DNA of 64,000 nt. It comes from Tridacna crocea. Taxonomy: Eukaryota > Mollusca > Bivalvia > Cardiida > Cardiidae. The notes below the pieces were generated by a model that did no database searches, was not told the origin of the DNA, and saw only the letters and a list, made by a program, of their open reading frames with translations. This document shows positions 13,627 through 63,999 of the stretch, in pieces. The translations under genes were made by a program, and so were the position numbers. Where the stretch lies: NCBI GenBank assembly GCA_943736015.1, contig OX031056.1, forward strand, positions 65,499,277-65,563,276, read 5' to 3'. Numbering within the stretch: the stretch's first letter is position 1; every line of letters begins with the position of its first letter.

Positions 13627-13858
13627 TTAACCCATTACCACTCATTGATGCCTTTTAACACCAGTGAGGAGGAAACCTTTTGAAAACATTGTGGGAAAAG
13701 GAGAAAATGCTGGTCACCAGCATTTTCTCCTTTTCCCACAATGTGTTCTACCCTATCGAGGTCAAATTCCATTATTTGAGTCACACTGAAATTGTCGTCT
13801 GCAAATGCTTTCAGTTTGGACAAGGCTGCTAAATCTTTATTGTGTGGTAAAGGGTTAA
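13627..13858 (+). mobile_element. TTAA-Pal MITE, complete
   Basis: TTAA at both ends, near-perfect palindrome centred on GGTCACC, and a long arm with GTCGTCTGCAAATGC. Confidence 0.9.
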
Positions 13859-14228
13859 AAGAAAGAAAAGCATGGTATTTTGCAACTCAAAGCAGTGACC
13901 TTTCACTTTTCAACTATTACGAAGTGACAAGAATTTTAGCCTATTCCAAACTGAATGTACACATACGCGTATATGTACACTACAAGTAAAAAGTGAGACA
14001 AAACATGAAATTTGGCATTTGAAGGGTATAAGATATACATACTTATAGTTGGAATAGAAGAAAATGCTTGTTACCAGCACTTTCTATGAATCATACTGTT
14101 TTCAAAAGCCCTTTTCCTTACACTATGGTCACAATGTGAAACTGCTGCGTGCCGATTTTTAGACATCACTGGATTCTTAAAATTACATGCCGCTGGCCGA
14201 TTTTTTTTAAAATTACAAATCGGTGAGA

Positions 14229-15026
14229 GTGGTCATAAATAACTGCCAGTAAAAGGCCGCCTGGCGGGTTCAGGGCGGCACAAGGCAGTTTCTTCAAATC
14301 GAGGGGTGTAGGGTGTCATCAGGGTGTCAGCTGGTGGCATTTAGGTGACAGGCCGTCAGCCGTCAGATTTTACCTGCCACCACCCGGCGACCTGGAAGAG
14401 ATTTTTTCTTCCAACAAGTTACCCCCTAAAGACAAGGGGGGGGGGCAGGACAAAGGGCAGGACTGAAGCTCAAGAGACCACAGCCCAACCCAGCAATACG
14501 CAAGTCTGAGTCGCTCTGGTGCTGTTAGAATGACGACTATGTTTGATTGTGAATAACCTCAGATTTATATTCAGGGGCCTGGGCTGGACAGGTCGCCATC
14601 CTGCCACCTACCAACACCAACAGCCGCCTTCCATCTGCTTTTCAATTTTCGCCCTGCCGCCGGCAAATATTTAGAAATCGTACGGTGGCATGACGGTAGC
14701 AGCGATGCTGGAGAGTGGCAGTTAGTTACTACCGATCTCCGGCCGAAAATTGAATGCCCTCGAACCCCGTGACGACCAAGTAAAAATTGGGACGCTTGAT
14801 AGCCACCGCACGACTACGAAATGCGCCTGCCTGGCGCCCTGACGATATGCACACTTGGAAAAAATCGTGGCAGACAGAATTTTAACTTTTTCTTAAAACT
14901 TCAGCGGCGTCCTGGCGGCGTCTAAAATGCCCCCTGCCACCTGCCGATTGTGCCTGCCACCGGCCGAATTTGAGTGAAAATTGGCAGTTACCAGGCCGGC
15001 AGGCGGCATTTGCTGATTTGTGACCG
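14229..15026. mobile_element. GC-rich foldback element
   Basis: Ends TGGTCATAAATAACTGCC and TGCTGATTTGTGACC are imperfect inverted repeats. The interior is far more GC-rich than its surroundings and full of CCTGCC/GGCAGG words of both orientations. No transposase seen. Confidence 0.55.
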
Positions 15027-15274
15027 TACTATTAGGATCGTTTAAGGCTGTGAAAATTGATAAAGGGTTTTCACTCACTATGAGCCTTTTAATTTGTGAT
15101 AGCTATTCAACTGTATTCAATCTACAAGCAAGATAATGACCTAGCTTTTTCGGCTTAGCTGTATATGCTGGCTTTGTACCTAATTTTTAGCACTGATAAA
15201 AAGTGAATAAACAGAAATTTGAGATTGGTCAAGAATGTATTTATATTTGTTCGAAGGGCCCCTGCCTAAGTAGT

Positions 15275-15503
15275 TTAACCCATTACCACGCAATCCCTAC
15301 TTTTGATGCCCTTGAGAAAGAAGCCTTTTGAAAACACTGTTGGAAAAGGAGAAAATGCTGGTAACCAGCATTTTCTCCTTTTCCCACAGTGTTTTCTACC
15401 CTTCCCAGAACAAATTTCAATTTTTCAGTCACCTTTATTTTGTCGTCTGCAAATGCTTTCAATTTGAAACAGTCTAAAATTTTGTCGTGGGGTAATGAAT
15501 TAA
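15275..15503 (+). mobile_element. TTAA-Pal MITE, complete
   Basis: TTAACCCATTACCAC to GGTAATGAATTAA, palindrome centred on GGTAACC; ACACTG/CAGTGT keep pairing. Confidence 0.9.
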
Positions 15504-15508
15504 ACATA

Positions 15509-15712
15509 TTTATTTACATCAATTTAGAAATAAGTTCTTACAACTTATTCTAGTTCCTCTCGGTTTTTCGTCTCGGGAACTACACCAGTACAAGTGCTGA
15601 ATGTGTGGGCTGATGAACAATCTCAAAGTTGACAGTCAGTCAGGGTATCGAATTTAGGACCTTATGGTTGCGAGGCCAATGCTCTACCTCAAAAACACAG
15701 AAACAACCTACT
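15509..15712 (-). repeat. tRNA-derived SINE, reverse copy
   Basis: Read on the minus strand, a tRNA-like head (GAGGTAGAGCATTGGCC, box B-like AAATTCGATACCC) leads to a 3' tail GTTGTAAGAACTTATTTC. It closely matches 23157-23355. Confidence 0.6.
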
Positions 15713-16094
15713 TGCTGACAAATTTACATCATCTTTCTTTTTTAAAGATATTTCTTGTTACATTTTTTTTTTTACTTTCATACCACCTTCTTTCCCCTGA
15801 TATTTAATAGTCTAGTCAATTTCTCGAGAGATTACAAGTCTTTTTTTCGTTGATGCTTATATCACCACTCTCCGCCTGATATTTGATAGTCTAGTCAATT
15901 TTTCATTTACCATGTGTCATATGTTCTCGATTGTCTAGACACCAATTAGAACAAATTATTGAAATCTTCACCATTGGATTCCATGGTTACAAGCAAGATG
16001 GCTTTCCAAAACAAGGGACCAAGAAGAAAATGTGGGTTTTTCACTTTCTTCTTTTTGTTTTCTACCTCTTCAAAAACAGAGCCCATAGTTTGAC

Positions 16095-16273
16095 TTAACC
16101 CTTCACCAAATAATTCCTGGTTTTTACAACCCTGAGATAGAAGCCTTTTGAAAACTTTGTGGGAAAAGGAGAAAATGCTGGTAACCAGCATTTTCTCCTT
16201 TTCCCACAATGTTTTCTACCTTGCTGGAAACAAATTTTAATGTTTGATTTTGGTTTATTTTAGTAAAGGTTAA
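16095..16273 (+). mobile_element. TTAA-Pal MITE, long arm deleted
   Basis: Intact short arm and palindrome (GGTAACC); the long arm is cut from TGATTTTGG to AAAGGTTAA. Confidence 0.8.
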
Positions 16274-16309
16274 ATCCTTGAAGATCATGAAAGAAAAGGA
16301 AAGAATTAA

Positions 16310-16543
16310 AACTTTACCCCCCACAATGCTGCTGTTTTAATAATCCTGAGAAAGAGAACTTTTGATGCATTGTGGGAAGAGGAGAAAATGCCAGTAAGTA
16401 GCTACATGTACTTTTACTTTTCCCACAACATTTTTTTTATCCCTTTAATGACTAATCAAATAATGTGTGCACATTGAATTTATTTTATGCAAATGCTTTC
16501 AATTTTGTTGGGTCCTAGAAATTTGTCATTTTGATAGTGTTAA
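16310..16543 (+). mobile_element. TTAA-Pal MITE, decayed
   Basis: GTGGGAAGAGGAGAAAATGC and CTTTTCCCACAAC still pair around a lost centre. It lies just 5' of the FERRY3 start exon. Confidence 0.6.
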
Positions 16544-16569
16544 TATGTAATGTACTTAACATATTTCAG

Positions 16570-16880: not shown

Positions 16881-19800
16881 GTTTGTGTTTACAATTTAAA
16901 TGTCATATTTCTGAGTCCTACAACAGAATACTTTCAAAAAAATTTTCATGAAGAAACTTTTTATCATGATCAAACTTTCCCCTAGCAATGTTTTCATACC
17001 TGTTTATATATTGACCCCTTGACAAACAGTCTTGTGACCATGAGACAAGGCTTTTGAAAACATTGTTTCTCCTTTTTCCGCAATGTTTTCTAACCTTTTA
17101 TGGATAAATCCAGTCATGAGAACCACTTTTAAATTGTTGCTGGCAAGGACAATCTGATTAATTATTAAAACATGTGTTTTGCAAGAAACTAAATGAGTAT
17201 ACCCTGAGAGAAAGAAAGTGCAAAAGCAAAAAGTAAGAATGTCTGAAATAAAACAAATTCTACTTTGATTTCAACAGAATGTCTCCTCATAATCAGATAG
17301 TGAAGACCAAAATTTAATATCGGATTGCATCTTGTGATTTAGAATCTAATATACTGTAGCTTATATTTTGTAAATATGATTTCATGTGCTTTCTGATCTG
17401 AATCTATACTGTTCCAACCATAGATCTTTTTGAAAGGCCGCTCTGTATTAATTTTTTTCTACAAAGTTCTGACTTTTAATGTCCCTGGGGAAGAAGCCGT
17501 TTGAAAACATTTTGAGTAGAGGAGAAAATGCTGTTAACCAGCATTTTCTCCTTGTTCCACAACGTTTTCTGCTTTATCAAGGAAAATTGTCATTTATGCC
17601 ACCTTTAATTTGTTGTCTGCAATTGGGCAAGTCTCGAATTTTGTCATTTGATAATAAGTTAACCATTAACTCTTTACCAAACAACAAAGTTTTAGACTGG
17701 TTCATATTCAAAGCATTTGCAGATGACATTAAGTCTTCATTCTCACTGAAAAAAAAACCCATAAATTTGCTGTGGGAAGTGTGGAAAACATGGTGGAAAA
17801 AGGAGAAAATGCTGTTTCACACCGTGTTTTCAATAGGCTTCCTTCTCAGGGTCATAAAAAGTCAGGGTTGTGTGGTAAATAGTTAACTCTTTAGTAAACG
17901 ACAAAATTGTAGACTGGTTTAAACTGAAAGCATTTGCAGACAACAGGATAGAAATTACTGGAAAATTGAAATTTGTTTCAGAAAGGGAAGAAAACATTGT
18001 GGGAAAAGGAGAAAATGCTGGATACCAGCATTTTCTCCTTTTCCCACAATGTTTTCAAAAGGCTTCTCTCTCAAAGTTGTATAAACCAGGGATTGGTTGG
18101 GAAAGGGTTAACGAACAACCTCTTGTTTTTACAACACTGTGGATGAAAGGTTTTGAAAAGTTTGTTGGAAAACGACTTTTCTCCATTTCATGGACAGTGC
18201 TCACCATTTTTTGCATTTGCAATTTCTTGTCTGCAAATCTCTTCAACTTGGACAAGTCTAAAATTTTGTTGTCTGATAATTATAGAAGTCTGAGAAACTT
18301 GACAAAACTACAGGAAATTGTTCTGCTTAAGATTTTTTGATAAATGAGATTTATCAAATGTTCAATTTTTTTTTCTACTTTAGATTTGACCACAAAGCTG
18401 CAAGAATTCATTCTGCATGAAACAAACAAGTTGTGTGATGAAAACGACAGTGAAGTGATAGGCAAATTCCGGAAGGGGGAAATAGATCTAGATAAACTTG
18501 TTGACGACTGGGATCATGCGTTCGCCCAGGTGACAATCCGCTTTTTATTTCCTCCAGGGTTGGTAATGTTATTTAGACTGATAAATGAAGTAAATTTGTA
18601 AATCTTTACTAGACTGACAAAATTTTAGCCCAGTCCAAATTGAAAGCATTTGCAGATGACAGTTACATTGTGGCTCAAATAGTGCAATTATTTATTGATA
18701 GGGTAGAAAACGTAGTGGGAAAAGGAGAAGATGCTGGTAACCAGCATTTTCATCTTTTCTCACAATGTTTTCAAAAGGCTTCTTTCTAAGGGTCATCAAA
18801 ATTTGTTATTGTGTGATAAGGGGTTAACTTTCTGAATGCTTCTCTTTTAGTCTTGCATCAGTTTGGTTTTGAAAACATGGTGGAAAATGAGACAAGCAAT
18901 TTCTTCTTTTGTCACAATGTTTTTTACATCAAGAACATTTTTTGTAGTTTTTAAAAGTTTAACCCTTTACCACACAATCACTAGTTTTAATGACCCTGAA
19001 GGAGTCTTCGGAAAACATTGGAGGAAAAGGAGAAAATGCTGGTCACCAGCATTTTCTCCTTTTTTCCACGTTGTTTTCTGCTATTCCAAAAAGAAATTAG
19101 AATTTTTGAGCCATATTTATCTAGTTGTCTGCAAATCAGAGAAGTCTTAAATTTTGTTGTTTGATAAAGGATCAATCACACAGCATCAAAAACCTTTTCA
19201 AAGTTGACACTTTGAATTCCATAGGGAATAGTTAACAATACGAAAAATAACACTCTAATGTTCTATATTTCTTCTAAATATTGCCTTTTTCAAGAGTTAG
19301 AGAAAAAGAAAAACAACAAGAAAACAACAGAGCGCAGTAACATTGACGTTATGTTGTGTAGCAGAGTTGACGTCATCTTTTATTAGTACAACAGTATGGC
19401 TGCGTGATACAAGCTAAAATGTGTTCTAGAAGGATAAAGTATTTCTAACTCTTGAAAAAGGCAATAGCCGAAATATTGAACATTAGAGTGGTATTTTCCA
19501 TAGCTTTTCAAGTTGTCTGCATATTTTTATTTAACCCTTTCCAAAACAATCCCTGGTTTTTACGAGTCTGGAATAGTAGCCTTTAGAAAACATGGTGGAA
19601 AATGGAGAAAATGCTGGTAACCAGCATTTTCTCCTTTTCCCACAATGTTTTTTACCCTATCATAGACAAAAGTCATTTTTTCAGCAAGAGTTAAATTGTC
19701 ATCTGCAAATACTGTCAATTTGTTCTTGTCGTTTAGGAAAGGGTTAAGAGGGCAGGTTGAATAACAATGTCTGTCAGTAGAAAAGGTCCCATCATTGCAT

Positions 19801-22800
19801 TACTAATGGACTGTCAGAGCAAAATCATAAAAATTGCACTATGCAGATCCAAGATCAGTCTGCATGTTCTGCGCAGTGGTATCTTTCTCTCCACTGTTCA
19901 GAATTTCTTTTATGTCCTATGCATTCTGATAGGAGAGGAAACTGATTCCTATGTAGCTATGGCCAAAGGAATTGAAGATGTTTATTTCTTTACCAAACAA
20001 CACAAATTTTAGACTGGTCCAATTGAAAAGCATTTGCAGATGGTAATTTAAATGTGTGTCAGATTACGAGAAAATTGTCTCCAATTATGTAGAAAATTTT
20101 GTGGGAAAAGGAGAAAATGCTGATCACCAAGAATTGCTTCTTTTTATACGCCCGAAGGGTCGTATTATGTTATACCCCCGGTCGTCCGTCCGTTAGCAAT
20201 TTCTTGTGTGCGCAACTCCTCCTACAGTTTCCATCGGAATTATTTGAAACTTGCCACAATGAATCTCCATGATGTCTAGTTGTGCACCTGGGTCTTAGAA
20301 TTTGGATCGCTGTTTGCGTTCTAAAATTATCTGCCCTTGATTTCTGAAATAACCAACTTTTCACTTTGAAGTTTTTGTTCCAGCTATAACTTCCATACTA
20401 TGAAAGGTATCAACTTGAAACTACATACACTGATAGGACACATTATGGAGAAGTGCAGTGCACATGAACCATGAACTCTGCCAACGTTATTTTTTGAGTT
20501 ACTGCCCTTTGTTAATTTTCAGTTTGAATTTTTATAGCTTCTAAACTATAAAAGCTATTAACTTGGAACTTCATACACTGATAGAACCCATTATGGAGAA
20601 GTGCACTGCACATGAACCATAACTCTGTCACCGTTATTATTTGAGTTATTGCCCTTTGTTAATTTTCACTTTGAATTTTTGTCCAGGCCATAACTTCCAA
20701 ACTATAAAAGATATCAACTTGAAACTACATACACTGATAGAACACATTATGGAAAAGTACAGTGCACATGAACCATGACTCTGCCAACGTTATTTTTTGA
20801 GTTACTGCCCTTTGTTAATTTTTAGTTTGAATTTTTGTCCAGGCCATAACTTCTAAACTATAATAGCTATTATCTTGAAACTTCAAAGACTAATAGAACA
20901 CATTATGGAGAAGTGCACTGCACATGAACCATAACTCTGCCACTTTTATTTTTTGAGTTATTGCCCTTTGTTAATTTTCAGTTTGAATTTTTGTCCTGGC
21001 CATAACTTCCAAATTATAAAAGCTAATAATTTGGAACTTCATACACTGATAGAACCCATTATGGAGAAGTGCATTACACATGAATCATAACTCTGCCATC
21101 TTTATTATTTGAGTTATTGCCATTGGTTAATTTTCAGTTTGAATTTTTGTAAAGACCATAACTTCCAAACTTCAAAATCCATCATCTTGAAACTTCAAAG
21201 ACTAAAAGGACACATTATGAAGAAGTGCATTGCACAAGAACCATAACTCTGCCCTCCCTCCTTCTGAGTTATTTCCCTTTTCACTTTGAATTTTCGTCTG
21301 GGCCATAATTTCTAAAATATAAAAGGTATGATCTGGGACCTTCAAAGACTGATCGAACACCTTGTAGATAAAAGCAATTCACAAAATTTGTAACTTTGCC
21401 ACCCTTATTTTTCTAGTTATTGCCCTTTAATATTTTTCATATGTCATGGAGAATAACTACTCTTCATTCATGGCCCATCCGTCAATGCAAGTCGTTTCAC
21501 TGACAAGCCCCTTCGGGCATATATGCGCCGCTCTGCGAAGCTCTTGTTCTACAATCTTTTCTAAAGCCTTTCCCATCAGAGTCATTACACTACTGATTGT
21601 TCTATAAAGGATTAACGCTTCAATACAGTCCTAACTTTTAATCCATTACCACACAATCCTTACTTTTGATGACTTTGAGAAAGAAACCTTCAGAAAACAT
21701 TGTGGAAAAATGAGAAAATGCTGGTAACCACCATTTTCTCCTTTTCCTACAATGCTTTCTACCCTTCACAAATTGAATTTCGAATTTCAGTCACTTTTAT
21801 TTTGTCGTCTGCAAATGCTTTCGATTCGAACAAACCTAGAATTTTGTTGTTTGGTAAAGCATTAATGATCCAAAGAAAACAGCTTTTTGAAAACATGTTG
21901 GAAAAGAAGAAATTGTTGGTTTTCAGCATTTTCTCCTCTTTCTACAAAGTTTTTCTAGTCCTTGAAAGAGAAATTTCTTGTTTTTAGTAACAGTGAACTT
22001 TTTCGTCTGCAAAACCTTTCAAATTAGAAATGTCTCTAATTGTGTTGCTTGGTAAGGAGTTAAACAATTACTGAAACAGTTCAAGTAAACCTGAAAAAGA
22101 AGGCCTTTAACTCTTTACGACACAATGCTGACTTTTAACGACCCTTAGAAAGAGAGCTTTTGAAAACATTGTAGGAAAAGGAGAAAATGCTGGCTACCAG
22201 CATTTTCTCCTTTTCCCACAATGTTTTCTACCCTTCCAAAATCAAATTTCAATTTTTGAGTTACATTTATTTTGTCGTCTGCAAATGCTTTGAATTTGGA
22301 ATAGCCCGAAATTTTGTGTTTGGTAAAGAGTTCAGAATCCTGTGGGAGAAGGGTAAAATGCTAGTCACCAGTATTTTACTCATATCCTATAATATTTTCC
22401 ACCCATCTCATCATTTGAGAAACATTTTAAATTGTTTCCTGCAAATGCTTTAGTTTGGACTAGATTGAAAATTTCGTCATCTGTAGAGAGCTGCCATGGT
22501 ACCAGATTACAAAAATTTGGGACCAATTCAATCTGAAGGCTTTTGCAAATATGAAATTGATTGTTGTTTAATTGGTGTGTTTGTGTTTGAAATTGCAAAA
22601 TATAGATATAAGAAATTGCAGCTGACCAGAATCTTCTCCTTTTCCCATATTGTTTTCTACCCAATCAAAAACAGAAATTGTTATATGTCTTCCATACATG
22701 CCTTTTATTTAGCCAAAAATTTTATCATTTAGTAAAGAGTTAATGTAAAGTTGGAAAGTAGCTTGCAAAAGAGGGGAAATACATGTACTTAACCCATCAG

Positions 22801-25800
22801 TGTAGAGATTTATATTCAGAATAAGGACTGATACTGTGAAACACACTGTATTATTCAAATAAGAGAAATACTCCACCCATACTGTTACATATTAGCGAAA
22901 ATTAACTCATAATTTTGATATCAAACAACTGAAGTACAGACTTTTTCTCTTAGAAAAACCTTACATGCACACAAGGTGCAAAAATTTTCAGATTGATATT
23001 CATTAAACTATTGTCTTGATGATATCTAGGACAAGACTGAATCTTGTCATAGCAAAAAGTAGGTCACATAAAAAACTTAGAAAAACCTTGTGTGTAGTGT
23101 AGAGGCCACATTTTCAGCCTGATTCTAATTAAACTTGGTCAGAATATTTAGTTTAAATGTATTTATTTTACTTTGATTGAGAAACAAGTTCTTACAACTT
23201 ATTGTTGATCTCTGTTGATTCTACTTCCTGGGAATCACACCAGTGCTCGTGAAAAATGTGTTGGCCAATGAACAATCCAGAGGTTGACACTTTCTCCTGG
23301 GTATTGAATTTCAGACCTTATGGTTATGAGGTAGATGCTCTACCTCACAAACATGGACACCACACAGAATATTGGTCAGAAAATTTGTCATGATGATTTG
23401 GACAGGTTTGAAATTGGGTCATGTCTGGTTTAAAATTGGGTCATATCTGGTCAAAAGTAGTTCTCTCAGCCAAATCAGAGTAAAACCTTGTTTACACTTT
23501 AGAGGCCACATTTCATCTGGATACTCATGAAACATTATCTGAATGTTTGTGTTGATTCTATCTTGAACAAGTTTTGAATTGGATCTCACAGACATCAGGC
23601 TAGAAAGATTGTCTTTTTGAACACTCAGGTTTTAAATTGGGTCACAACAGATCAGAAAGTGGGTCACTGGGTCAAATCTTAGAAAGAACTTGTAAGCAGT
23701 CTATTGACCAAATTTTCAGTCTAATACCCATGAAACGTTAAGCAGAATGTTTTTCATGATATATCTGACAAATAATAGGTCAAGTTGATAAAAAAGTACC
23801 AAGCAACTGTTCCTTTTCCCAAAATGTTATTCCCTCTGCTAAAAACTGAATTTTCTTTGCCTATAACATTAGTGTTTATCCTTTGTGTGTACCTCTCAGT
23901 AGTTTTTTATATGTCTGTAAAATCCAGTCTTTATGATAAATGATAGAATTGACAAAAATATCTTTGCAATCATTGACTTACGTAGGTGGTATAAGTGCTT
24001 TGTAGGTTTTGAAATACCATGTGCAATTACAGGTTCACACTTAACCACACATCATATTTCAGGCTGGTTCAAATTGAAAGCATTTGCAGACAACCAGTCA
24101 ACAGTAGCTTAACTCTGTACTGAACAACAAAATTTTAAAATGGTCCAAATTGAAAGCAATTGCAGGCAACAAAATAAATGTGACTCCAAAAATTAAGATT
24201 TGTTTCCAGCAGGGTAGAAAACATTATGGGAACACATTGTGGGAAAAGGAGAAATGCTTCTGCTAATGCTTTCAGTTTGGATCAGTCTAGGATTTTGTAG
24301 TCTAGTTAAGATTTAACTCTTTACAACACAATCCTGAGTTTTAACGACCCTAAAGAAAAAAAACTTTTGAAAACATTATGTGAAAAGGAGAAAATGCTGG
24401 TAACCAGCATTTTCTCCTTTTCCCATAATGTTTTCTACCCTACGAAAAACAAATTTCAATTTTTGAGTTATGTTGATTTTGTCGTCTGTAAATGTTTTCG
24501 ATTTGGACCAGTCTAACATTTTGTCGATTGGTAAAGGGCTAACCTCATAGTCTGATGTTTCCGTACTTCTGAGGACTGGAGGAAAACAGATTTTGAAAAT
24601 GTCTTATGCGAAGGAGAATGTTGGTAACTAGTATTTTAATCTTTTACTTTGCTGTTTTTTACCCTAACAGGTCTTGATATTTCAGCCAATTTTACCCTGA
24701 CAGGTCTTAATTTTTTTTTAAACCTCATTTGATTTTTGATCTGCAAAGACTCTCTGTACAGACATACCTAAAGTTTTGTTGTCTGGATATAGTTTTACCC
24801 TTTACCAAACAATCCCTTGTTTTAACAACCCTGGGATAAAAGCCTTTTGAAAACATTGTGGGAAAAGGAGAAATTTCTGGTAACCAGCATTTTTTCCTTT
24901 TCCCACAATGTTTTTTTACCCTGCTGGAAACAACTTTCAATTTTTGAGTTATGTTTATTTTGTCGTCAGCAAGTGCTATTGATTTGGACCATGTTAAAAT
25001 TTTGTTGTTTTGTAAAGAGTTAACCCTATACAAGACAAAAAAATTTACCCTTGTCCAAATTGAAACCATTTGCAGACGACGATTTCAAGGTGGCTCAAAT
25101 GGTGCAATTTTAACCATGATAGGGTAGAAAACATTGTTGAAAAAGGAGAAAATGATGGTCAGCAGCATTTTCTCCTTTACCCACAATGTTTTCTACAATA
25201 TCAAAGAAAAATTACACCATGTAAGCCACACTGAATTCTTGTTTTCAAATACTTTCAATTTGGGCAAGGCTTAAATTTTGTCATCTGGTTAAGGGTTAAA
25301 AAATCAACAAAATCCCTTTCTTATACAGGAGGTAAAAGAGTTTGCCAAGCCGGAGGAAGTGAGCAAGGAGCAGATCTTCTCGGAGGTCTACCACTCCCTG
25401 ATTCATTCACCCGCTCTAGAGACGCTTCTTAACCTTGAACACACCTACGCGCTTGCCATTGATGACCTCATACAGCAACGGGATAAAGATCTAAAACATC
25501 TCCAAACAAAGTAAGTCGTACCACAGTACAACACCTCTCATTTAGTACTTTACTGTCTGCAGATGATTTGCAGTGTTTTGCAGCAGACAACTTTTAACCC
25601 ATTACCACACAATCCCTACTTTGGATGCCCCTGAGAAAGAAGCCTTAAGAAAACATTGTGGGAAAAGGAGAAAATGCTGGTAACCAGTATTTTCTCCTTT
25701 TCCCACAATGTTTTCTACCCTTCACAAAACAAATTTCAAATTTTCAGTCACTTTTATTTTGTCGTCTGCAAATGCTTTCAGTTTGGATCAGTCTGAAATA

Positions 25801-49800: not shown

Positions 49801-52800
49801 CGAGGCAAAATTTTAAACTTACCCAAATTGGAAGCATTTGCAGATGGCAATTTCATAGTGGCTCAAATTACGAAATTTCTTTTTGATAGGGTAGAAAACT
49901 TTGTGGGAAAAGGAGAAAATGCTGGTTACCAGCATTTTCTCCTTTTCCCAGAATGTTTTCAAAAGGCTTCTTTTTCAGGGTCGTGAAAACCAGGGATTAT
50001 GGGAAAGGGATAAAGGTAAAAGGATCCAATTAGAATAGAATAGAATAGTTTTATCATTTCCATAGTGGGCCCTGTAATGGCATACATAACACATATCAAT
50101 ATACTAGATAATACATACTTATGCTAAGATACATAATGATAGAGACATCGCATGGCATTTCCAACAAAGTGAAACGGACATCCAGAAAAGACACAGATCA
50201 GCCCATGTATCAGTGCAGTCTGATCTGGATCCTTGTGTGGGTTTACAGGACAGTGCGAGTCTTCACTGTTTAACCATTTAAAATCAAGACTGTGAAAATG
50301 CCATATGCCGGATCAAATACTAGTATTCAATTATATCACAGATAATTAATGTTAAAAACTATTACTCTGTGACCATCAAATTGCTGCAGATTTTTTACAT
50401 AATTATACTACTCAACATTTGCCAGGGATCCCCCTAAAAGATTCGCTCTAAATATATATGTGGCATGTATCATGTATGGTTTTACGATATCGTCGGTGTG
50501 CTTCCAAAACCTCGTAACTACAGCTTGTTACAACCTGTAGTTACGAGGTTTTGGAAGCACACCGACGATATGTTACACTGCTACACTGATCAATAAAATG
50601 ACAAGTGGAAATGGATCTTTAAGCCTTTACCTCACAATGCCGACTGCTAAAGATACTGAGAAAGAAGTCTTTGGAAAACATTGTTAGAAAAGGAGAAAAT
50701 ACTGGATACCAGCATTTTTTGCTTTTCCAATGATGTTTTCTACCCTGTGACAGACAGCATAGTGCGTGTTGCAGACAGTTTTTGGTCAGCAAATGCTTTC
50801 AACTTAGACAGACCTGGAATTTTATAGTATCATAAAGTGTTTATGCAAAACTGTTGTAACATATAAACCCACACAGAAATATGTAAGTGATCCCTATCAA
50901 AGTTTGAGTAGTATATTTATGTATGTTGCATCAGTATTTTGTTTTCATCAGGTGCACAGATGAAGACAACCCACAACCTTCGACTGTTATGTGCCAGTGT
51001 CATGGACTTGTGTAGGCATAAACCTCACACTGTTGGGTAAGAGTTTGAACTCTCTACTGCAGTATTGAGTTTAACCAACCCTCAAGGAAGAAAGGTTTGA
51101 AAACATTGTTGGAAAGCGAGAAAATGTTGGTAACCATCAAGTAGTGATGTAAAGTATTTGCTGCTACGTACATGTACTCATGTTGGTAGAAATTGAACTA
51201 AATTCTATCTTGTTATTTACACATACCAGCCAGTCATTCTAGCCGACCATAATGGGCGTATTCCTTTCACCTGTTCTGGCACAATGATCTGTGTTCTGGA
51301 ATCCTTTTCTGGAAAGTTTGAAAAGAAAGTACATTGCCATGATGGTCATTACAAGAGCTACTGTCTTAGATGTGTTAGTTGGGGATATAATTAGCTGAGG
51401 GAGTAGAGCTGAGTCTACAATGCCCCTATATATGGCATTCATATCTTTAAAAAGACAATTGCAAATTTGGCCATGAAGTATTGTCTGTCTTTCAGCCATC
51501 TTTTATCACCTAGCAACCTCGACTGAATTAGAACAGTCAGAATATGTTCTGAAGAACATGGTACAGTGGTCCGAAATACTCCATTGACCTAGAACATGTT
51601 CCTGGTGTTTGGGGTATCAGTGAAAGATTTAAGCTCCTTTCACAACTTTAGTTGATGTTAGTATTGATTTAGACCAAGATCAGACCACATAGAACATGCA
51701 GTTTGATCTTTGATCCATTGTTCCATTCACTATTTTGCAGTAATTCTGATCAATAGCAACCTTGAAATAATAATTAATTATTTTATTATACTCCCGTAAA
51801 ACAAATATTTTTGGGGGTATACTGGAATCAGCCTGTCAGTGTGTCCATTCTTGTCTCTGTTGGTGCGTCTCTCTGTGTACGAAATAGTAGTACATGTAAT
51901 TGCCTGTTTCTGTCAAAGCGCTGGCGAGGATATTAAGTCACATTCAGTGACAGCTCTAGTTTATAAACTGTAATTGTCTGTTACATTTATTTTGGGCTCA
52001 AGAAATCAATTTACTTACCATGTACATACATGTATTCAGTAATGTTCAATAAAGTTATTGTTGTTTGTCATTAAAGGGGTGTAATGGTGGCACAGCCACA
52101 AAGGTTACAGACAGCCATGTCCCTGTACTCCAGCAACCTGAATGGGCTTATCATGTTGGTGGATAATAGACTAAACACTTATACAGGATGTAAGAGAGGT
52201 AAGCCCGAGACCAGTGCTTTGTCTATTTCTACTCCCAACAACAAAGTGGAGGGAGGTATACTGGAACCGTCATGGCTTTCTGTCCATCTGTCCATAGACA
52301 CAAATGTCCGGGGCAATACTCAAACAGTTTTTCATGTACTGTTTTCTACCCTTCAAATGTTCTCTACCCTTCAAAACTTTACATACAGGGTTCCTCTATG
52401 TATAATTATGAAGTTGTGCATGTGCAATTTGCATGACCTTACTGCAACTTGTTGCGGAATTATCTCTCATTGAACTTTTTTCACTCTTAATTTGTACTTA
52501 ATCATCCTGCACTCTGTGACAAAGACCCGCTTTTGTGACAAAGAGCTGATGGGAGGGTATAATCACGCTCACGCCAAAATCAAAATTCAATTTTTGATTC
52601 ACATTTGTTTTGTCGTGTGCAAATGCTTTCAATTTGGACTAATCCAAAATTTTGTCGCTTGTAAAGAGTTAAATGCTGTTTAGGTAATGAGATCTGTCTT
52701 TGAAAGAAAGACTTGTGATCCTGTAGTTATGAGTCTGATATCCTATTTAACCCATTACCATACAATCCGTACTTTTGACGCTCCTGTAGAAAATGTTGTG

Positions 52801-55800
52801 GGAAAAGGTGAAAATGCTGGTAACCAGCATTTTCTACTTTTCCTACAATGTTTTCTACCCTTCACATATCAAATTTTTAAATTTTCAGTCACTTTTATTT
52901 TGTCACCTGCAAATGCTTTTGATTTGGACAAGTCGAAAATTTTGTCATGTGGTAATGAGTTAAGTAAACTTTCTTTGCGATGATTTTTCACTTCTCACCT
53001 CTGAGAGAGTAGTCAGTGACTTGGAATGGAAGCCAGAAAACAGTGGCATAGGTGGTGCACTCACTGCCCTGATACAATCTTAACTGTAAAACCCTGTTGA
53101 ACTCCAGTCAATAAAACTTTGAAAAGGTGGAAGAAACTTACCTGAAAGACTGAAAAGAAGAAAATCTTATTACCATATTTGGGTTGTCCTAGGGAAATGT
53201 GTGTTTACCCTGAAACACACAATCCCGAGTTTTAAACCTTTACCACACAATGATGATTTTGAACAACCCTGAGAAAGAAGCCTTTTGAAAACATTGTAGG
53301 AAAAGGAAAACATGCTGGAAACCATTTGTTCCTTTTCCCAAAATGTTTTCTACCCTTCAAAACTTTTTCGTCTGGTAATGGGTTAATGACCCTATGGAAG
53401 CAGGCCTTTGAAAACATTGCAGGAAAAGGAGAAAATGCTGGTGACCAGCATTTTCTCCTTTTCCCACTATGTTTTCAACCTTTCATAAGATAATTTCCAC
53501 CAATTGAGCCAAATTTTAATTTCCTTTGGATTTGGACCAGACCAATATTTTTTTGTTTGGTTAAAAAGTTTTTTAAACATCCAGCCTGTAGTTGCCGCAA
53601 CACCAGAAACTTAAGGATAAGTGAAGTGTAACTATTACATAACTTGAACAGCTTTCATGCATGTTGGGTCAGATGCCATTGAAATGAAACCTACAAATAA
53701 GGAATTAATGAGGTAACTAAGGAAGCAGATTCACAGGAAATTTAATCTGCAAAAGACTCTTTCACTACTATAGTTGTCTCTTCAGCTAGTGTAGGTCAAG
53801 ATCAGACTGTGCAATATGTGCTGTCTGATCTTTGATCTACCCTGTATGTTTAGGAGAAACAGTAAAGACAGAAGAAAGAATGAAATTTCAATATTTTTTA
53901 TCTTTTTTTCTAAACTGGCAATGTCTGTTGGGTTTATTTGGTGCTTTAACCCATTACCACACAACCTCTACTTTTGACAACCCTCAGAAAGTAGCCTTTA
54001 GAAAACATTGTGGGAAACTGAGAAAATGCTGGTGACAAGCATTTTCTCCTTTTCTTTCCCACATTGTTTTCTACTTGTCACAAAATAAATTTCAAATTTT
54101 CAGTCACTTTTATTTTGTCATCTGCAAATGCTTTTGATTTCGACAAACGTACAATTTTGTCATTTGGTAATGAGTTAATCTTTTACCACACAACCCTGAC
54201 TTTTAGCAACCCTGAAGAGGACAGCTTTTAAAAACATTGCGGGAAAAGGAAAAAATGCTGGTAACCAGCATTTTCCCTTTTTCCCCCACAATGTGATCTA
54301 TCCTTCTTAAAACAATTTTCCAATTTCGATTCACATTTTGTCGCCCTCAAATGCTTTAATCTGGACGCGTCTAAAATTTTGATATTTAGTTAAAAGTTGA
54401 AAGTAAATTGATGTGTTTGTCACTGCATGTAAATTTTTTCATCATTATGTAACTGTTTCAGCGTTTGCCAAAGTGTGTGAAAGTTCAACAGATTTTCACT
54501 TCCCCAATTTACAAAAGCAGTTTCTGGACGTGGAGGAGAAGATAAAAGAGGCAAATCAAACAAGGAAGAAGAATGTGGAGGATGGAGATAAAATCAGTTT
54601 AAAAAGTACAGGAAGTACCGGCAGTTACGAGACACAGGTGTGGTCGGAGAAATCCATAAGATTGTTTGTTGCATGATTTTTACGACATTATAGATCAGTA
54701 TCAGGCCTTAGTGTTATCCTGCTGTATAAGTTAACTCTTTATCAAACGACAAAATTATAGCCTGGTGCAAAATCGAAAGCATTTGCAGACGACAAAATGA
54801 ACGTGACAATAAAATTGAAATTCCTTTTGGTAAGGGTAGAAAACATTGTGGAAAAGGGAGAAAATGCTGGTTATCAGCATTTGAGATTTCTGCATGTTTT
54901 CCTTTTCCCACAGTGTTTTCAGAAGGCTTCTTTTTCAGGGTCATCAAAAGTTTAGATTAGGTGGTAAAGAGTTAAATAAAATCTTTAAGCGGAGAGTAAA
55001 AATCCAAGCAATGCCATTTCAAAGTTATTTTTTGGAGAAAAATAATCTCCTTATAGGACAGTGGCTATCCAAGATCAGACATCTGCACTGTCCACAAGAG
55101 GTCCTTTAGGCAAGCATAGCAGTCTTAGGTTTGAACTGGTACAGCAAACCTCAGGTGATCTGTTGATCAATTTTGACAGTTTGATAAGTGTGAATAAATG
55201 TACTTTAGTTGATGCTGCTAATTGATTGAACCCTTTACCAAACAATTCCTACTTTTGACGACCCTGAGAAAGAAGCCTTTAGAAAACATTGTGGGAAAAG
55301 GAGAAAATGCTGGTTACCAGCATTTTCTCCTTTTCCCACAATATTTTCTACCCTTCACTAAACAAATTTCAAATTTTCAGTCACTTTTATTTTGTTGTCT
55401 GCAAATGCTTTGGATTTGGACAAACCTAAAATTTTGTCGTTTAGTAATGAGTTAATTTGGCATTGCCATGTTTAAGATCATATAAACTGATAGTACTTCA
55501 AAACAGAAACGCCCTTGTTGTGGATGAGGTTGGATGTAGTTTTGGAATCTTCTTCTAAATTGTGATAAAATGGCTCAAAAGAAAGCACTAATACCACTAT
55601 ATTAGTGTTAAAGACAATTATTGTAACATTACTGACTCAAAAATCATGTTTACCTTCTCTAGCATACAACAAACTTTCAGCCTAGACTAAACCAAAAATG
55701 TTTGTAAACAATGAATTTCGCATGTCTGTAAACTCTGTATCACGTAGCAGATTTTTAGACTTAACCAAATCGAAAGCCTGTGGAGAAGACAGTTCAACTT

Positions 55801-58800
55801 ATTACCACATGAGAAAATTTTAGGCTGGTCCAAATTGAAAGTATTTGCAGATGACAAAATAAAGGTGACTCAAAAACAGTTGTGCTGGTAAGGGTAGAAA
55901 ACAGTGGGAAAAGGAGAAAATGCTGGTTACCAGCATTTTCTCCTTTTCCCACAGTGATTTCAAAAGGCTTCTTTCTCAGGGGCGTCAAGAGTAGGGAATG
56001 TGTGGTAATGGGTTAATCATGTCTCAAATGATGCAATTTTTGTTTGAAAGGGTAAAGAACTTTGTGGGAAAAGGAGAAAATGCTGGTTACCAGTATTTTC
56101 TTCTTTTCTCACAATGTTTTCAAAAAGGCTTCTTCCTCAGGGTCGCTAAAAGTGGTCATTGTGTTGTAAAGGGTTAATGATAAACTCGATTTCAGATGGG
56201 TAGAGAACATTGTTGGAAAAGCAGGAGATATGCCCTATATGATGTAATTTAATTTTGAAAGGTAGAATATATTCTAAAGAAAGGAGAAATGCTGTTACCT
56301 AGCATTTCCTCTTTTTTCCAACCATGTTTCAAAAAGAATTTTTTTGTCTGGTCATAAAAACCCAAGAAAAGTGGCAAATTTTGATAAACTTCACGTAGGG
56401 GAAGCACCATTGCATTGCACAAAAGATTTTAATCTTTTCAGAGAATTGTAAACTTTATATTTTTGTGGTCATTTGCACATAGGCAGTGACATAATTTTCG
56501 TAATGCTATTTAATGATATTTTGAGAGATTAATCAAAATTATTTTGAAATCTTACAAATCTCCTGCACCAGCATTTTCTCTTTTTCCCATAATGTTTTCT
56601 CTCTTCTAAAGTCAAGTTTTAATGTTTGAGTCTCATTTATTTTGTCATCTGCAAATACTTTCAATTTGGACAAGTCTAAAGATTTTGTTTTAAGATCTTT
56701 AACTCTTTACCAAACGACAAAATTTTAGACCAGTCCAATATGAAAGCACTTGCAGACGACAAATTAAAAGTATTTCGACAATTAAAATTTTTTTTTCCAG
56801 CAGGGTTGAAACATTGTGGAGAAAAGGAGAAAATGCTGCTTACCATCATTTTCTCTGAACCAGCATTTTCTCCTTTTCCTTCATTTTCAAAAGGCTTTTA
56901 TATCAGGGTGGTAAAAATCTGGGATCATTTGTGTAAGGGTTAAATACCTCCTTTTCTCACATTGCTGAATAAAATATTGAAAACTGTAAATTGTTTTCTC
57001 TGTCTTATGAATTATAATGAACAATATTTCAGGACAAAAGTTCAAAACTTTACACCGGAGATTTCTACATCACAAGACATTCCAATCTGTCAGAAGTTCA
57101 TACGGTATTTCATCTAGTCACAGACGACAGCACCCGTAGTGAAATATCCTCACGCCATCCGGTCATTCTAAGTCTACGTAGCATCATCAAACTATGTTTT
57201 AAGTACGATATCATGACACTGACCATTCCCTTACTGTTGACACATGAAATGTCAGAGGTGAGTCAACATAAACAATTATTGGCTGAACTCTTTACAATAC
57301 AGTTGCATGCTCTTTCCCAAATTCAAAGCATTGGTAGATGATAAATTGAATGTAGCTTGACTGATTGGATTAAATTTGTCTTTTAACCCTATACCAGACA
57401 ACAAAATTTTAGCCATGTCCAAATTCAAAGCATCTGCAGACAACAAGTTCATTATGGTGCAAACTGTGCTATATTTCTTTGATAGGGTAGAAAACATTCT
57501 TGGAAAAGGAGAAAATGCTGGTTACCAGCATTTTCTCCTTTTCCAACAATGTTTTCTAAAGGCTTTTTCTGAGGGTCGTTAAAAGTAAGTATTCTGGAGT
57601 AAAAGGTCAAAGGTTAGAAAATATGGGAATAGTGGGAATGCAGCCCAACTCTTTCTCAAAGGACAGTATTTTAGACGGGTCCAATTTAAGAGCACTTGCA
57701 GATGACACAATGGGATTTGTATCAGATAGTCTATTAAACATTGTGGTAAATGGAGAAATTGCTGGTTAAGAGCATATTCTCCTTTCTCCACAATGTATTT
57801 AAAAGGCTTACTTGTCAGGGATGTTAAAATTGGAGATAGTGTTAGGTAAAGGGTTAACATCATTGTCTTTGTTTCCTTGAATGTTTTCTATGTCCTGCTT
57901 CCTCAGAGTCTGAAAACAGTTTTTTTTCCCGAAGGTAAAATATCTCAACTCTTTACCAAACAACAAAATTTTAGGCTTGATCAAAATGGAAGCATTTGCA
58001 GATGACAAAATAAAAGTGACTGAAAATTTAAAATTTGTTTTGTAAAGGGTGTAAAACATTGTGGGATATGAGAAAATACGGTTTACAAGCATTTTCTCCT
58101 TTTCCCTCAATGTTTTCAAAAGTTTTCTTTCTTAGGGTTGTTAAAAGTCAGGATTGTGTGGTAAAGGGTTAAAGACTGTGATAGAAATACCATTTACCTG
58201 TACCAACACATTTGAAATAGGTACAAATATTTGAGAGAATGAAACTGCAGTTTTTCATTTTTGTGTAAAAAATTGTGGAAATGTTTTGGTATAACGAATT
58301 GTCTGTTTTTCTAATCTTTGCTTTTTCCAATGATTATAATGTTACTGTGTGTGTATTCTATCTATGTAACTTGTAGGAGATGACCATCCCATGGTGTATG
58401 AAGCGTGCTGAACTGGTGTTTAAATGTGTGAAAGGTTTTATGATGGAAATGGCAACCTATGGTGGCCAAGACTCCAGAACAATACAGTTTCTGGTGCCAC
58501 CCGTAAGTCTACCCTCATTGCATTACAACAACTAGTTTTCTTGGGTTCCTTTGTGACTGATTAGTTACCCCATACTAAACAAATTCTAGACTGGTCCAGA
58601 TTGAAAGTATTTGCAGACAAAAAATTAGTTATGACTGAATTGGAAAAATATGTCTCTCATAGGCAACCCGCATTTTCTAACAATTTATTCAAAGGCTTTT
58701 CCCACGAGTTGTTAAAACAGGCCAAGACTGTGTGGTATAGGGTTAAGTCTTTAAAAGAGGACAAAACTGTAGACTCCATTGTCAAAGCATTTGCAGACTT

Positions 58801-60989: not shown

Positions 60990-61174
60990 TTAACCCATTA
61001 TCACACAATCCCTACTTTGACGACCCCAAGAAATAAGCCTATAGAAAACATTGTAGGAAAAGGAGAAAATGCTGGTAACCACAATGTTGTCTTCCCTTCA
61101 CAAAACAAATTTCATATTTTCAGACAGTTTTATTTTGTCATCTGCAAATGCTTTCAATTTGGGCACACTTAAAA
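60990..61174 (+). mobile_element. TTAA-Pal MITE, right palindrome arm deleted
   Basis: TTAACCCATTATCACAC, left arm to GGTAACC, then directly CACAATG. It follows a 27 bp start of another copy (60963). Confidence 0.75.
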
Positions 61175-61189
61175 TGGATGAACATTTTT

Positions 61190-61335
61190 TAATTCATTGT
61201 GGGGTGAGAAAATGCTGGTAACTGGCATTTTCTCCTTTTCCCAAAGTGTTTTCTAAGCTCTCAAATATATACATGTATTTCAATTTTTGAGCCATAATTT
61301 TTGTTAAAAGTCAGGATTGTGTGGTAAAGGGTCAA
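61190..61335. mobile_element. TTAA-Pal MITE, chimeric
   Basis: Palindrome centred on GGTAACT, long-arm-like TTTCAATTTTTGAGCC, then a short-arm end GTGTGGTAAAGGGTCAA. Confidence 0.6.
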
Positions 61336-61563
61336 CCTTGTACCAGACAACAAAATTTTAGACTGGTCCAAATTGAAAGCATTAGCAGATGACAAAAAAT
61401 CAAAGCGACTCCAAAATTGGAACTTGTATTGGGAAGGGTAGAAGAAATGGTGGGAAAAAGGAGAAAATGCTGGTTACCTGCTTTTTCTACTTTTCCACAA
61501 TGTTTTTAAAAAGTCCTCTTCTACTGGGTTGTGAAAACCAGGGATTGTTTGGTAAAGGGTTAA
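61332..61563 (-). mobile_element. TTAA-Pal MITE, complete
   Basis: TCAACCTTGTACCAGAC to TTTGGTAAAGGGTTAA; centre GGTTACC. Confidence 0.85.
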
Positions 61564-61624
61564 GTGTTCCTCTTGACAGTAACAACAAATGATGAAATTG
61601 CCTTTTATCAATTTATACCAAATT

Positions 61625-61815
61625 TTGATTAGATAAACATTTGAAAACATTGTTGGAAAAGGAGAAAATGCTAGTAACCAGCATTTTCTCCTTTTTCAAC
61701 AGTGTTTTATCACCATGTACGAGAAAAATCTGATCATTTCAGCTGCATGCAGTTTGTTGTTTGTAAGTGTTTTCAATTTGGAGAATTCTAAAGTATTGCT
61801 TTGTGGTAGAGATAG
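61625..61815 (+). mobile_element. TTAA-Pal MITE, short arm eroded
   Basis: TGTTGGAAAAGG pairs with CCTTTTTCAACA; centre AGTAACC. Confidence 0.75.
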
Positions 61816-61967
61816 CCATAGAGTAAAAAAATATTGTTGGAAATGACAAAAATAGGGAATTACCATACATAAAAGCGAAATATTGGAGAAAGGATTTTTT
61901 GTATGATATCATTTGAAAAGGGTCTCTGCTCCTTTTCTTGCAATCTTATCAAAATCTTTTCATCACA

Positions 61968-62194
61968 GACTTACTTACCAAACAATTCCAATTTTAACGA
62001 CCCTGAGAAAAAAGCCTATAGAAAACATTTGGGGAAAAAGAGAAAATGCTGGTAACCAGCATTTTCTCCTTTTTCCACAATATTTTCTAACCTATCAAAA
62101 TCAGAAATCATCATAGAAACAAAATTTAATTTGTTGTCTGCAAATGCTTTGAATTTGGTCAAGTACAAAAATTTGTCGTTTGGTAAAGAGATAA
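61968..62194 (+). mobile_element. TTAA-Pal MITE, complete
   Basis: CTTACTTACCAAAC to TTTGGTAAAGAGATAA; centre GGTAACC. Confidence 0.85.
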
Positions 62195-62254
62195 CCCATT
62201 ACCACAAAACAGTTTAAGAATTATCCAAATTGAAGGCATTTGCAGAATGCAACA

Positions 62255-62453
62255 TTAACCCTTTACCAAACGACAAAATTTTAGACTGTTCCAGATTGAA
62301 AGCATTTGCAGACGACAAAATTAATGTGACTGAAGAATTGAAAACTGTTTTAGGAAGAGCAGAAAACCAGCATTTTCTCCTTTTCCCACAATGTTTTCAA
62401 AAGGCTTCTTTCACAGAGGTGTTAAAAGTCAGGATTGTGTGGTAAAGGGTTAA
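62255..62453 (-). mobile_element. TTAA-Pal MITE, left palindrome arm deleted
   Basis: TTAA both ends; GCAGAAAACCAGCATTTTC shows the missing arm. It abuts a long-arm fragment at 62191-62254. Confidence 0.82.
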
Positions 62454-62721
62454 TTTAAATGTCTCAAATGATGGAATTTTTCCTGAAAGGATGGAAAACA
62501 TTGTGGAAAAAGAAGATGCAAGGATGTAGTATACATATTTCTGTGGTTATAGGTTATTGCAGTCTCATTTCAAGTGTCTATTTTGTTTTCAACATTCATT
62601 TTGCCTAATCAAGTATCATAAATTAACTGCCACATGTTACACCAGTGTTTCTTTCCAAAGTGCAATATTTGTCATTAAACTTTTGTCTGACATATTCTTC
62701 ATCTTTGTTTTCTTCCACAAG

Positions 62722-63465
62722 TAACTCTTTACCACACAATCCTGACTTTTAACGACCCTAAGAAAGAAAGCTTTTGAAAACATTGTAGGAAAAGAAGATA
62801 ATGCTGGTAACCAGAATTTTTTTATGCCCAAAGGGTCGTATTAAGTTATACCCCCGGTCGTCCGGTAGCAATTTCTTGTGTGTGCAACTACTCCTACAGT
62901 TTTCATCGGAATTATTTGAGACTTGCCACAATGAATCTCCATGATGTCTAGTTGTGCACCTGGGTCTTAGAATTTGGATCGCTGTTTGCGTTCCAAAATT
63001 ATCTGCCCCTGATTTCTGAAATAACCAACTTTTCACTTTGAATTTATGTCCAGGCCATAAATTCCATACTATACAAGGTATGAACTTGAAACTACATACA
63101 CTGATAGAACACATTATGGAGAAGTGCAGTGCATATGAACCATAACTCTGCCACTGTTATTTTTTGAGTTACTGCCCTTTGTTAATTTTCAGTTTGAATT
63201 TTTGTCCAGGCCATAACTTCTAAACTATAAAAGCTATTAACTTGGAACTTTTTTTTTAGTTATTGCCCTTTAATATTTTTCACATATCGTGGAGAATAAA
63301 TACTCTTTATTCATGGCCCATCCGTCAATGCAACTCATTTTACTGACAAGCCCCTTTGGGCGTATATGCGCCGCTCTGTGAAGCTCTTGTCAACTTTTCC
63401 CACAATGTTTTCTATCCATCTCTAAACAAGTTTCAATTTTCAAGTCACATTTATTTTGTTGTCGG
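62722..63465 (+). mobile_element. TTAA-Pal MITE split by element C3
   Basis: 62722-62823 has the short arm and left palindrome arm (GGTAACC); 63391-63465 continues as CTTTTCCCACAATG and long arm. Confidence 0.8.
62824..63390 (+). mobile_element. CCCGAAGGG-family element C3
   Basis: Head ATGCCCAAAGGGTCG and end GGCGTATATGCGCC...GCTCTTGT around about two tandem units. It splits a TTAA-Pal copy at the T-run of its palindrome. Confidence 0.78.
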
Positions 63466-63512
63466 ATATGAATAGTCAATGAAGATAGAACAGCAGAACA
63501 ATGTAGAAACTG

Positions 63513-63518
63513 AATAAA
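63513..63518 (+). terminator. Possible polyadenylation signal AATAAA
   Basis: AATAAA followed by a TTTGTTTATTTTTT stretch, 2.6 kb past the FERRY3 stop. Use would require a 3' UTR containing several MITEs. Confidence 0.2.
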
Positions 63519-63770
63519 CTTTGTTTATTTTTTAACATTGATGCTGTAACAAATAATATTCTGATTTTCTTAAAGATAGTTTATTATATTATGTCCTTAG
63601 AACCAGTCAGACCTAAACACACTGTTAAAATTTAATTAAGTGTAGAACAGTTCAGAATTTAGTCAGCTACGTAAATATAAATTACCAATACATATATATA
63701 TTGTCAGGGATAAAGAAACTCAAGGTATTTGTCTTTAACTTTTAACCAGAAATGACAACACTGGTTTCTT

Positions 63771-63999
63771 TTAACCCATTACCACACAATCCCTACTTTT
63801 GACGCCCCTAAGAATGAAGCCTTTAGAAAACATTGTGGGAAAAGGAGAAAATGCTGGTAACCAGCATTTTCTCCTTTTCCCACAATGTTTTCTACCCTTC
63901 ACAAAACAAATTTCAAATTTTCAGTCACTTTTATTTTGTCGTCTGCAAATGTTTTCAATTTGGACCAGTCTAAAATTTTGTTGTTTGGTAAAGATTTAA
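63771..63999 (+). mobile_element. TTAA-Pal MITE, consensus-like complete copy
   Basis: TTAACCCATTACCACAC to TTTGGTAAAGATTTAA. 63824-63894 is a perfect 71-nt palindrome: two 35-nt arms around a single A in GGTAACC. Good reference copy. Confidence 0.95.

Follow-up and report, generated by a model that had tools for sequence, protein, structure and literature searches.

A dense cluster of palindromic TTAA elements, probably piggyBac-type MITEs, among the exons of a FERRY3-type gene in Tridacna crocea

The window analyzed here is a 64,000-nucleotide stretch of the genome of the bivalve Tridacna crocea (assembly GCA_943736015.1, contig OX031056.1, positions 65,499,277 to 65,563,276 of the forward strand; window positions are used below), which contains a FERRY3-type gene and a dense family of short elements that very likely are TTAA-specific, cut-and-paste miniature inverted-repeat transposable elements (MITEs) built around a central palindrome. 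When the whole window was translated in six frames and the resulting 66 stretches were compared with Pfam (E ≤ 0.01), one gene emerged, Fy-3, in eight stretches with a best E of 1.8e-52; this Pfam family corresponds to subunit 3 of the FERRY endosomal complex. Seven of the eight stretches could be placed and lie in order along the plus strand (Table 1). Two other Pfam families, at E 0.006 and 0.009, were taken as chance matches. From 18.4 kb onward, the MITEs lie among the exons of the FERRY3-type gene, and the part between 13.6 and 18.4 kb may be upstream of this gene or in its first intron.

A first-pass annotation, made from the sequence letters, had described more than 90 copies of a TTAA family with common ends around a near loop-free palindrome at 13627–63999. 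The end motif TTAACCCTTTACCA, with up to two mismatches, matched 110 times against 0.75 expected from 100 shuffles, and 107 of the 110 matches start at or after 13627; exact 14-mer ends number only 12, and the ends common to the family are a consensus, not an invariant sequence. Alignment of 25 full or near-full-length copies gave a consensus of 229 nt, and a family profile was built from 23 of them with the exclusion of two divergent copies. The profile search of the window returned 228 raw matches covering 22,221 bases (21,436 from 13627 onward), whereas 20 Markov-simulated windows searched with the same profile gave no match. Because the palindrome matches both strands, the best strand was kept at each place to remove redundancy, which left 130 copies or pieces, divided 65/65 between the strands. 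The dense palindromic family is thus borne out, with 125 pieces beyond 13 kb; five more pieces lie upstream of the annotated start at 13627. The count of more than 90 holds for pieces that cover the palindrome core (98 of 130) but not for end-to-end copies, of which there are 51 (30 minus, 21 plus); some of the pieces pair up as the two halves of a copy that was interrupted. From 13627 on, the 130-piece set covers 21,162 bases, or 42% of 50.4 kb. The full copies are uniform in length (15 of exactly 229 bp, 24 within 228–230 bp, range 192–245), and they diverge from the consensus by 7–26% (median 14%), which indicates that the insertions were spread over time.

The element of about 229 bp consists of TTAA, a CCCTTTACCA-like tip, a 39-nt left arm, the 71-nt palindrome, a right arm of about 91 nt, an inverted tip with CTC instead of CCC, and TTAA. 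The palindrome occupies columns 54–124 of the family model, between the left arm and the longer, unlike right arm, and it is distinct from the terminal inverted repeat. TTAA is present at the left end in 40 and at the right end in 36 of the 51 full copies. After the left TTAA, CCC follows in 32/51 full copies, mostly as CCCTT or CCCAT, and 32/51 left tips match CC[C/T]T or CCCAT; at the right end CTC (23/51) is found more often than CCC (just 12/51), a consistent left-right difference that the annotation of common ends had not included. The first tip base is C in 45/51 left and 42/51 right ends. The family is therefore short, of uniform length, present in many copies, bounded by inverted terminal repeats and devoid of a coding domain of its own, and the target site is duplicated at independent insertion sites, all of which are features of MITEs.

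Duplication of the TTAA target is seen directly at several places. When the copy at 31937–32165 was excised in silico and its flanks were joined at one TTAA, the joined sequence matched 32248–32410 at 90.8% over 163 bp and 31692–31854 at 86.3%. The copy at 26231–26459 provides weaker evidence, because its joined flanks match at only 69–74% and the alignment is poor at the TTAA itself. Several copies are nested in older ones (Table 1). A program-based test of 54 elements for nested insertion returned four rows, two of which, 41876–42104 and 55794–56016, have host pieces overlapping by exactly four model columns. The elements at 21638–21865, 37429–37657 and 53232–53386 occupy the same internal TTAA (column 29) as 41876–42104; their left host pieces were too short for the program and were read by eye. 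A single TTAA is common to a full copy and the next piece at eight right ends, including the nested cases 21638 and 41876. The likeness of adjacent pieces (0.692, 63 pairs) is no higher than that of other pairs (0.702, 6892 pairs), and the same holds for adjacent full copies (0.727, eight pairs) compared with other full copies (0.769, 1267 pairs). Since neighbors are no more alike than distant pairs, the cluster grew by independent insertion into TTAA. The region contains 405 TTAA sites, of which 74 are full-copy ends and 197 lie outside the family; targeting of copies to one another is thus not needed, and TTAA junctions common to neighbors would be expected of random TTAA choice.

The palindrome at 63824–63894, previously annotated as 71 nt with one unpaired base, was confirmed to have 35-nt arms without mismatch, and an equal one, likewise with a 1-nt spacer, lies at 26336–26406. 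A palindrome scan found 50 palindromes scoring at least 16 in the window, 49 of them in the family, as against none in three Markov nulls. The sole strong palindrome outside the family is an unrelated one of 85 nt at 50487–50571 (42-nt arms, one mismatch, 1-nt spacer). As single-stranded DNA, the 229-nt type copy folds far better than its shuffles (z −9.4), and the segment 63824–63894 as RNA forms a single hairpin without interruption (−56.1 kcal/mol, z −14.8). No other part of the element is as well conserved as the palindrome: among full copies, the identity of its arms to the consensus is 0.923 and 0.926, compared with 0.890 and 0.876 for the 14-nt tips, 0.817 for the left arm, and 0.764 and 0.866 for the right arm. 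Decay after insertion should be uniform along the element, so the higher variability of arms and tips would stem from differences among the source copies, which, we infer, varied least in the palindrome.

The palindromes of inserted copies decay with age. Among the 48 full copies that have at least 25 readable pairs (three of the 51 have fewer), the more the arms have diverged, the higher is the mismatch in the palindrome (rho 0.46, p 0.001): it is 4.8% in the three copies whose arms are least diverged and 21% in the 14 whose arms are most diverged. As a trend, each new copy begins near-perfect and its palindrome then decays. Changes on one side only account for 541 of the 604 pair cells having any change. 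Compensated pairs, on the other hand, number 35 in 95 copies, against a shuffle mean of 18.4 (sd 3.7, maximum of 500 shuffles 30). By divergence class they number 4, 11, 17 and 3, compared with 0.9, 3.8, 9.7 and 2.1 expected, and copies with at most 10 changes hold 15 against 4.8 expected. We take this to mean that the palindrome was retained in source copies with slight drift of its sequence, whereas inserted copies simply decay.

In a tree built from the arms only, most other transversion columns follow the tree, but the A/T state of the central base (column 89) requires 12 changes for 12 T copies and thus carries no phylogenetic signal. In the strict GGTnACC context this base is T in only 5 of 45 cases (37 A, 2 C, 1 G). 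Repeated flipping of the central base was considered and is not relied on, because a hypermutable unpaired base explains the pattern equally well. Columns 23, 50, 162 and 217, which are not obviously CpG, are also without tree signal. At the CpG columns 33/34, 170/171 and 212/213 of the family model, C>T and G>A changes occur independently of the copy tree, which is the pattern that decay of methylated CpG would produce.

Two derivatives bear on the history of the palindrome. The element at 37429–37657 has different outer arms around a related but altered palindrome; of its 128 BLAST matches, those listed span approximately columns 48–137, that is, the palindrome and its edges, with the exception of one match of 71% over 1–123 against 18959–19079. 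Its compensated, still palindromic sequence within other arms supports the keeping of the palindrome by source copies. A decayed palindrome at 18867–18928, in a 131-bp stretch between two full copies, is by eye nearer to that of 37429–37657 than to the main one. The second derivative, 25020–25299, is a mirror image with two right arms around the palindrome, and among the best 30 listed in a half-to-half comparison it alone clearly stands out (0.77). Another mirror element, now decayed, may exist at 24109–24316, where the halves score 0.61 (subterminal 0.69) and either side carries pieces of the right end. Of the other mirror candidates, 43996–44287 was rejected as a nested copy, and 53232–53386 and 35569–35740 arose from overlapping matches and were not established. 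In yeast, template switching between inverted-repeat arms evens out the arms and inverts spacers (PMC8604942). By analogy, template switching could even out the palindrome in source copies, and the mirror derivative 25020–25299 fits such an event.

Table 1. Coordinates of the palindromic family, its informative copies and derivatives, and the FERRY3-type exon matches in the window
Feature	Position	Strand	Remarks
Cluster of 125 family pieces	13627..63999	.	Profile search; 21,162 bases
Type copy: left end, left arm, 71-nt palindrome, right arm, right end	63771..63999	+	229 bp; top profile score, 252 bits
Perfect palindrome, 35-nt arms, 0 mismatches, 1-nt spacer	63824..63894	.	Palindrome scan; folds as one hairpin
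Full copy with uninterrupted paralogous sites 32248-32410 and 31692-31854	31937..32165	+	Joined-flank comparison
Full copy with perfect 71-nt palindrome 26336-26406	26231..26459	-	Joined flanks 69-74% like sequence beside 166-bp tandem arrays
Full copy nested at internal TTAA (model column 29) of older copy	41876..42104	-	Host pieces overlap by exactly 4 columns
Full copy nested in right arm of older copy	55794..56016	-	4-column overlap; duplicated site TCAA on one side, TTAA on the other
Full copy nested at internal TTAA of older copy	21638..21865	+	Left host piece by eye; host resumes at model column 30
Full copy inside older copy (43847-43985 + 44225-44287)	43996..44224	-	Joined flanks align continuously to model; not returned by the stricter nested test
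Shortened 155-bp copy nested at internal TTAA of older copy (continued by 53383-53567)	53232..53386	.	Left piece by eye
Element with different outer arms and related, altered palindrome	37429..37657	-	12 changes, 3 compensated pairs; nested at internal TTAA of older copy (by eye)
Mirror-image derivative: right arm, palindrome, inverted right arm	25020..25299	.	Halves 77% alike
FERRY3 (Fy-3) possible exon, profile 18-72	18377..18541	+	20.4 bits, below Pfam cut-off 25.8
FERRY3 exon-like match, profile 66-129	25320..25511	+	Pfam Fy-3
FERRY3 exon-like match, profile 129-197	44758..44964	+	Pfam Fy-3
FERRY3 possible exon, profile 239-277	50951..51070	+	23.7 bits, below cut-off 25.8
FERRY3 exon-like match, profile 251-302	52042..52197	+	Pfam Fy-3
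FERRY3 exon-like match, profile 302-352	54458..54610	+	Pfam Fy-3
FERRY3 exon-like match, profile 357-432	57033..57257	+	Better of two stretches in frame

Other features of the window include a tRNA-Thr (agt) gene at 3278–3353 (ARAGORN prediction) and tandem arrays. Several arrays of a 166-bp unit, broken by other sequence, occupy 5064–12842, and sequence similar to that neighboring them surrounds 26231–26459. Further arrays lie at 20358–21253 (156-bp unit), 26501–26953 (170 bp) and 32761–33434 (163 bp).

The best overall explanation, to which we give a probability of about 0.7 (lowered from 0.72 after the right tips were counted), is a MITE of the piggyBac kind that spread by independent TTAA insertions and carries the palindrome as a cis-acting module. 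A transposase of piggyBac type, coming from another part of the genome, would excise the element and join it into TTAA. The cluster was built by numerous independent insertions, chiefly within introns of a single gene, and TTAA sites inside or at the ends of older copies were among the targets. The palindrome would be a module that source copies must keep, in the simplest case a docking or bending site for the transposase, and, as the trend above shows, each new copy starts with a near-perfect palindrome that then decays. The docking role is proposed because cysteine-rich domains of the transposase bind palindromes near the piggyBac and piggyBat ends (PMC11707139). From this analogy, a role of the palindrome in transposition can be put forward tentatively, at less than even odds.

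Several observations weigh against this explanation. The piggyBac transposase domain is Pfam PF13843, and no transposase domain was found in the six-frame scan of the window at E 0.01, in agreement with the first-pass annotation. TTAA stands at both ends in only 26/51 full copies, which qualifies the TTAA borders annotated earlier. The right tips are mostly CTCTT or CTCAT, and only 14/51 match the piggyBac motif. The uninterrupted paralogues of the 31937–32165 site read CATAAGG and CATAAAG instead of TTAA. As for the remaining two rows of the nested-insertion test, the host overlap of the copy at 62255–62453 is eight columns, not four, and the row for 42760–42989 was rejected as a false pairing with a neighbor. 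Within the palindrome, conservation is poor at the central base, with an identity of 0.681 among full copies. The mean pair mismatch of the 48 full copies is 0.144, against 0.141 expected for independently mutating arms; resident copies are therefore not repaired, and in-place correction was ruled out. Pairs altered on both sides number 63, within the slid-control range of 54–74, so that only the complementary share is raised, and the compensation count can be inflated by common descent of source copies.

The same MITE could carry the palindrome as a passive relic: a snap-back inverted duplication would have given rise to the founder, and the palindrome would have been passed on by a small number of source copies, in which it was perfect because they were young. 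The independent decay of resident palindromes, the predominance of one-sided changes together with both-side changes no more frequent than in slid controls, and the mirror derivative, which shows that inverted duplications occur, all agree with such a relic. It is harder to reconcile with a palindrome better conserved than tips and arms, with compensated pairs in excess of shuffles, and with an element that keeps an altered yet palindromic version between other arms (37429–37657); we regard the relic as possible, at less than even odds. Rather improbable is a more elaborate form of the module, a movable hairpin common to MITEs with different ends that acts in cis as a "hinge": it would extrude as a hairpin or cruciform, with arms copied over (as in the mirror element 25020–25299), the central base flipped, source palindromes renewed and an edge in transposition as the result. 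The palindrome might instead be kept for an RNA hairpin, as a small-RNA precursor like human Made1/mir-548 or for silencing or escape from silencing. The unbroken RNA fold and the position of most copies among the exons of a gene would suit this, but there is no Rfam match at gathering score, and among one-sided changes those resulting in a G-T pair show no excess over those resulting in A-C (139 versus 157), which makes an RNA function unlikely.

The identity of the family may also be questioned. Kolobok, the foremost candidate among other TTAA superfamilies, also duplicates TTAA (PMC6004289) and is reported from bivalves (PMC10294476), and the right tips of the present family depart from the piggyBac motif; the T2-MITE/Kolobok elements of Xenopus are, moreover, abundant MITEs with a TTAA target as in the present family. 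Their tips, however, are AG/RR (PMC6004289), which are found at neither end of the family, where the first base is predominantly C, and this assignment is unlikely. A satellite-like array, a segmental duplication or an assembly artefact could be suspected from the very high local density, from back-to-back copies with one common TTAA and from the other tandem arrays in the window. The equal use of both strands, neighbors no more alike than distant copies, an uninterrupted paralogous site, nested copies and a divergence of 7–26% from the consensus, which assembly error would not produce, leave this very improbable. The piggyBac-kind MITE thus remains the preferred explanation. Its TTAA duplication and left CCCTT/CCCAT tips indicate that the piggyBac-like origin proposed in the first-pass annotation was probably right, although the odds of the piggyBac type were lowered because the right tips mostly do not fit the motif.

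Comparison with described systems places the family among known kinds of elements. A survey of piggyBac-superfamily transposons of molluscs and other animals reports TTAA duplication and counts CCCTT and CCCAT among their conserved tip motifs (PMC10813416), which agrees with the left end of the present element; those transposons carry a transposase, whereas the present family has none in the window and its right tips are mostly CTC, and the survey excluded MITEs. TTAA together with CCCTT/CCCAT tips has been described as a hallmark of piggyBac (PMC10813416, PMC2872659). The nearest described precedent is CMITE of Acropora corals, which has in common with the present family the TTAA duplication, CCCTTT tips (in five of six CMITE families), the lack of coding capacity, stronger conservation of an internal region than of the tips, and several copies side by side; the role of that internal region was left open by its authors (PMC2872659). 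In contrast to the palindromic element of about 229 bp studied here, CMITEs measure approximately 100 bp, and no palindrome is described in the sections of that report covered here (PMC2872659). Their tandem arrays are ascribed to replication slippage (PMC2872659), whereas adjacent copies here are independent insertions, and the published 60-bp internal sequence is, by eye, unlike the family consensus. The piggyBac and piggyBat ends likewise have palindromes inward of the tips that are bound by transposase, which resembles the position of the palindrome here, but those are of 19 bp in piggyBac and imperfect ones of 14 bp in piggyBat, near the ends (PMC11707139), in contrast to a central one of 71 nt.

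Made1 belongs to the mariner elements, which target TA. This human element, a short MITE present in many copies in primates, consists of two 37-bp repeats around 6 bp and is a nearly perfect palindrome (PMC1784062); Made1 is thus wholly terminal repeats plus 6 bp, whereas the present palindrome is internal, between two unlike arms. Made1 is abundant with this structure, so that a 71-nt palindrome at high copy number has precedent in eukaryotes. The view that a family keeping such palindromes is unusual because they are generally unstable is accordingly not supported; nor are the palindromes preserved after insertion, since resident ones decay at the rate of independent mutation. Short inverted repeats can nevertheless initiate rearrangements when a break has occurred or in mutants defective in repair (PMC7999016).

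No description of this family was found among the titles and abstracts listed by searches of an open-access library, where the letter strings of ends and palindrome turn up in three papers, all with unrelated titles. Exact palindrome patterns had no match in public viral-contig or genome-contig collections. One end-pattern match in a viral contig (one match against 0.30 expected in 3,521 bases), which has no partner end, was taken as chance. In bivalves, MITEs are reported to take up a considerable part of the genome, and the survey concerned left them without finer classification (PMC10294476), so that a family like this could sit undescribed in bivalve repeat libraries. The kind of element is known; what is unusual is the local density, the central place of the palindrome, and the palindrome as the best-kept part.

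One small element family thus makes up about 42% of 50 kb of largely intronic sequence of one gene, and its best-kept part is the palindrome instead of the tips that a transposase would be expected to need. If the palindrome is necessary, it would answer the question left open for the coral CMITEs, namely why some piggyBac-type MITEs keep their middle, and would do so with a testable sequence. If it is idle, the family would warn against equating the strongest conservation within a MITE with function. In either case, some 95 palindromes of differing age in one locus constitute a natural record of the decay of a 70-nt palindrome in an animal genome.

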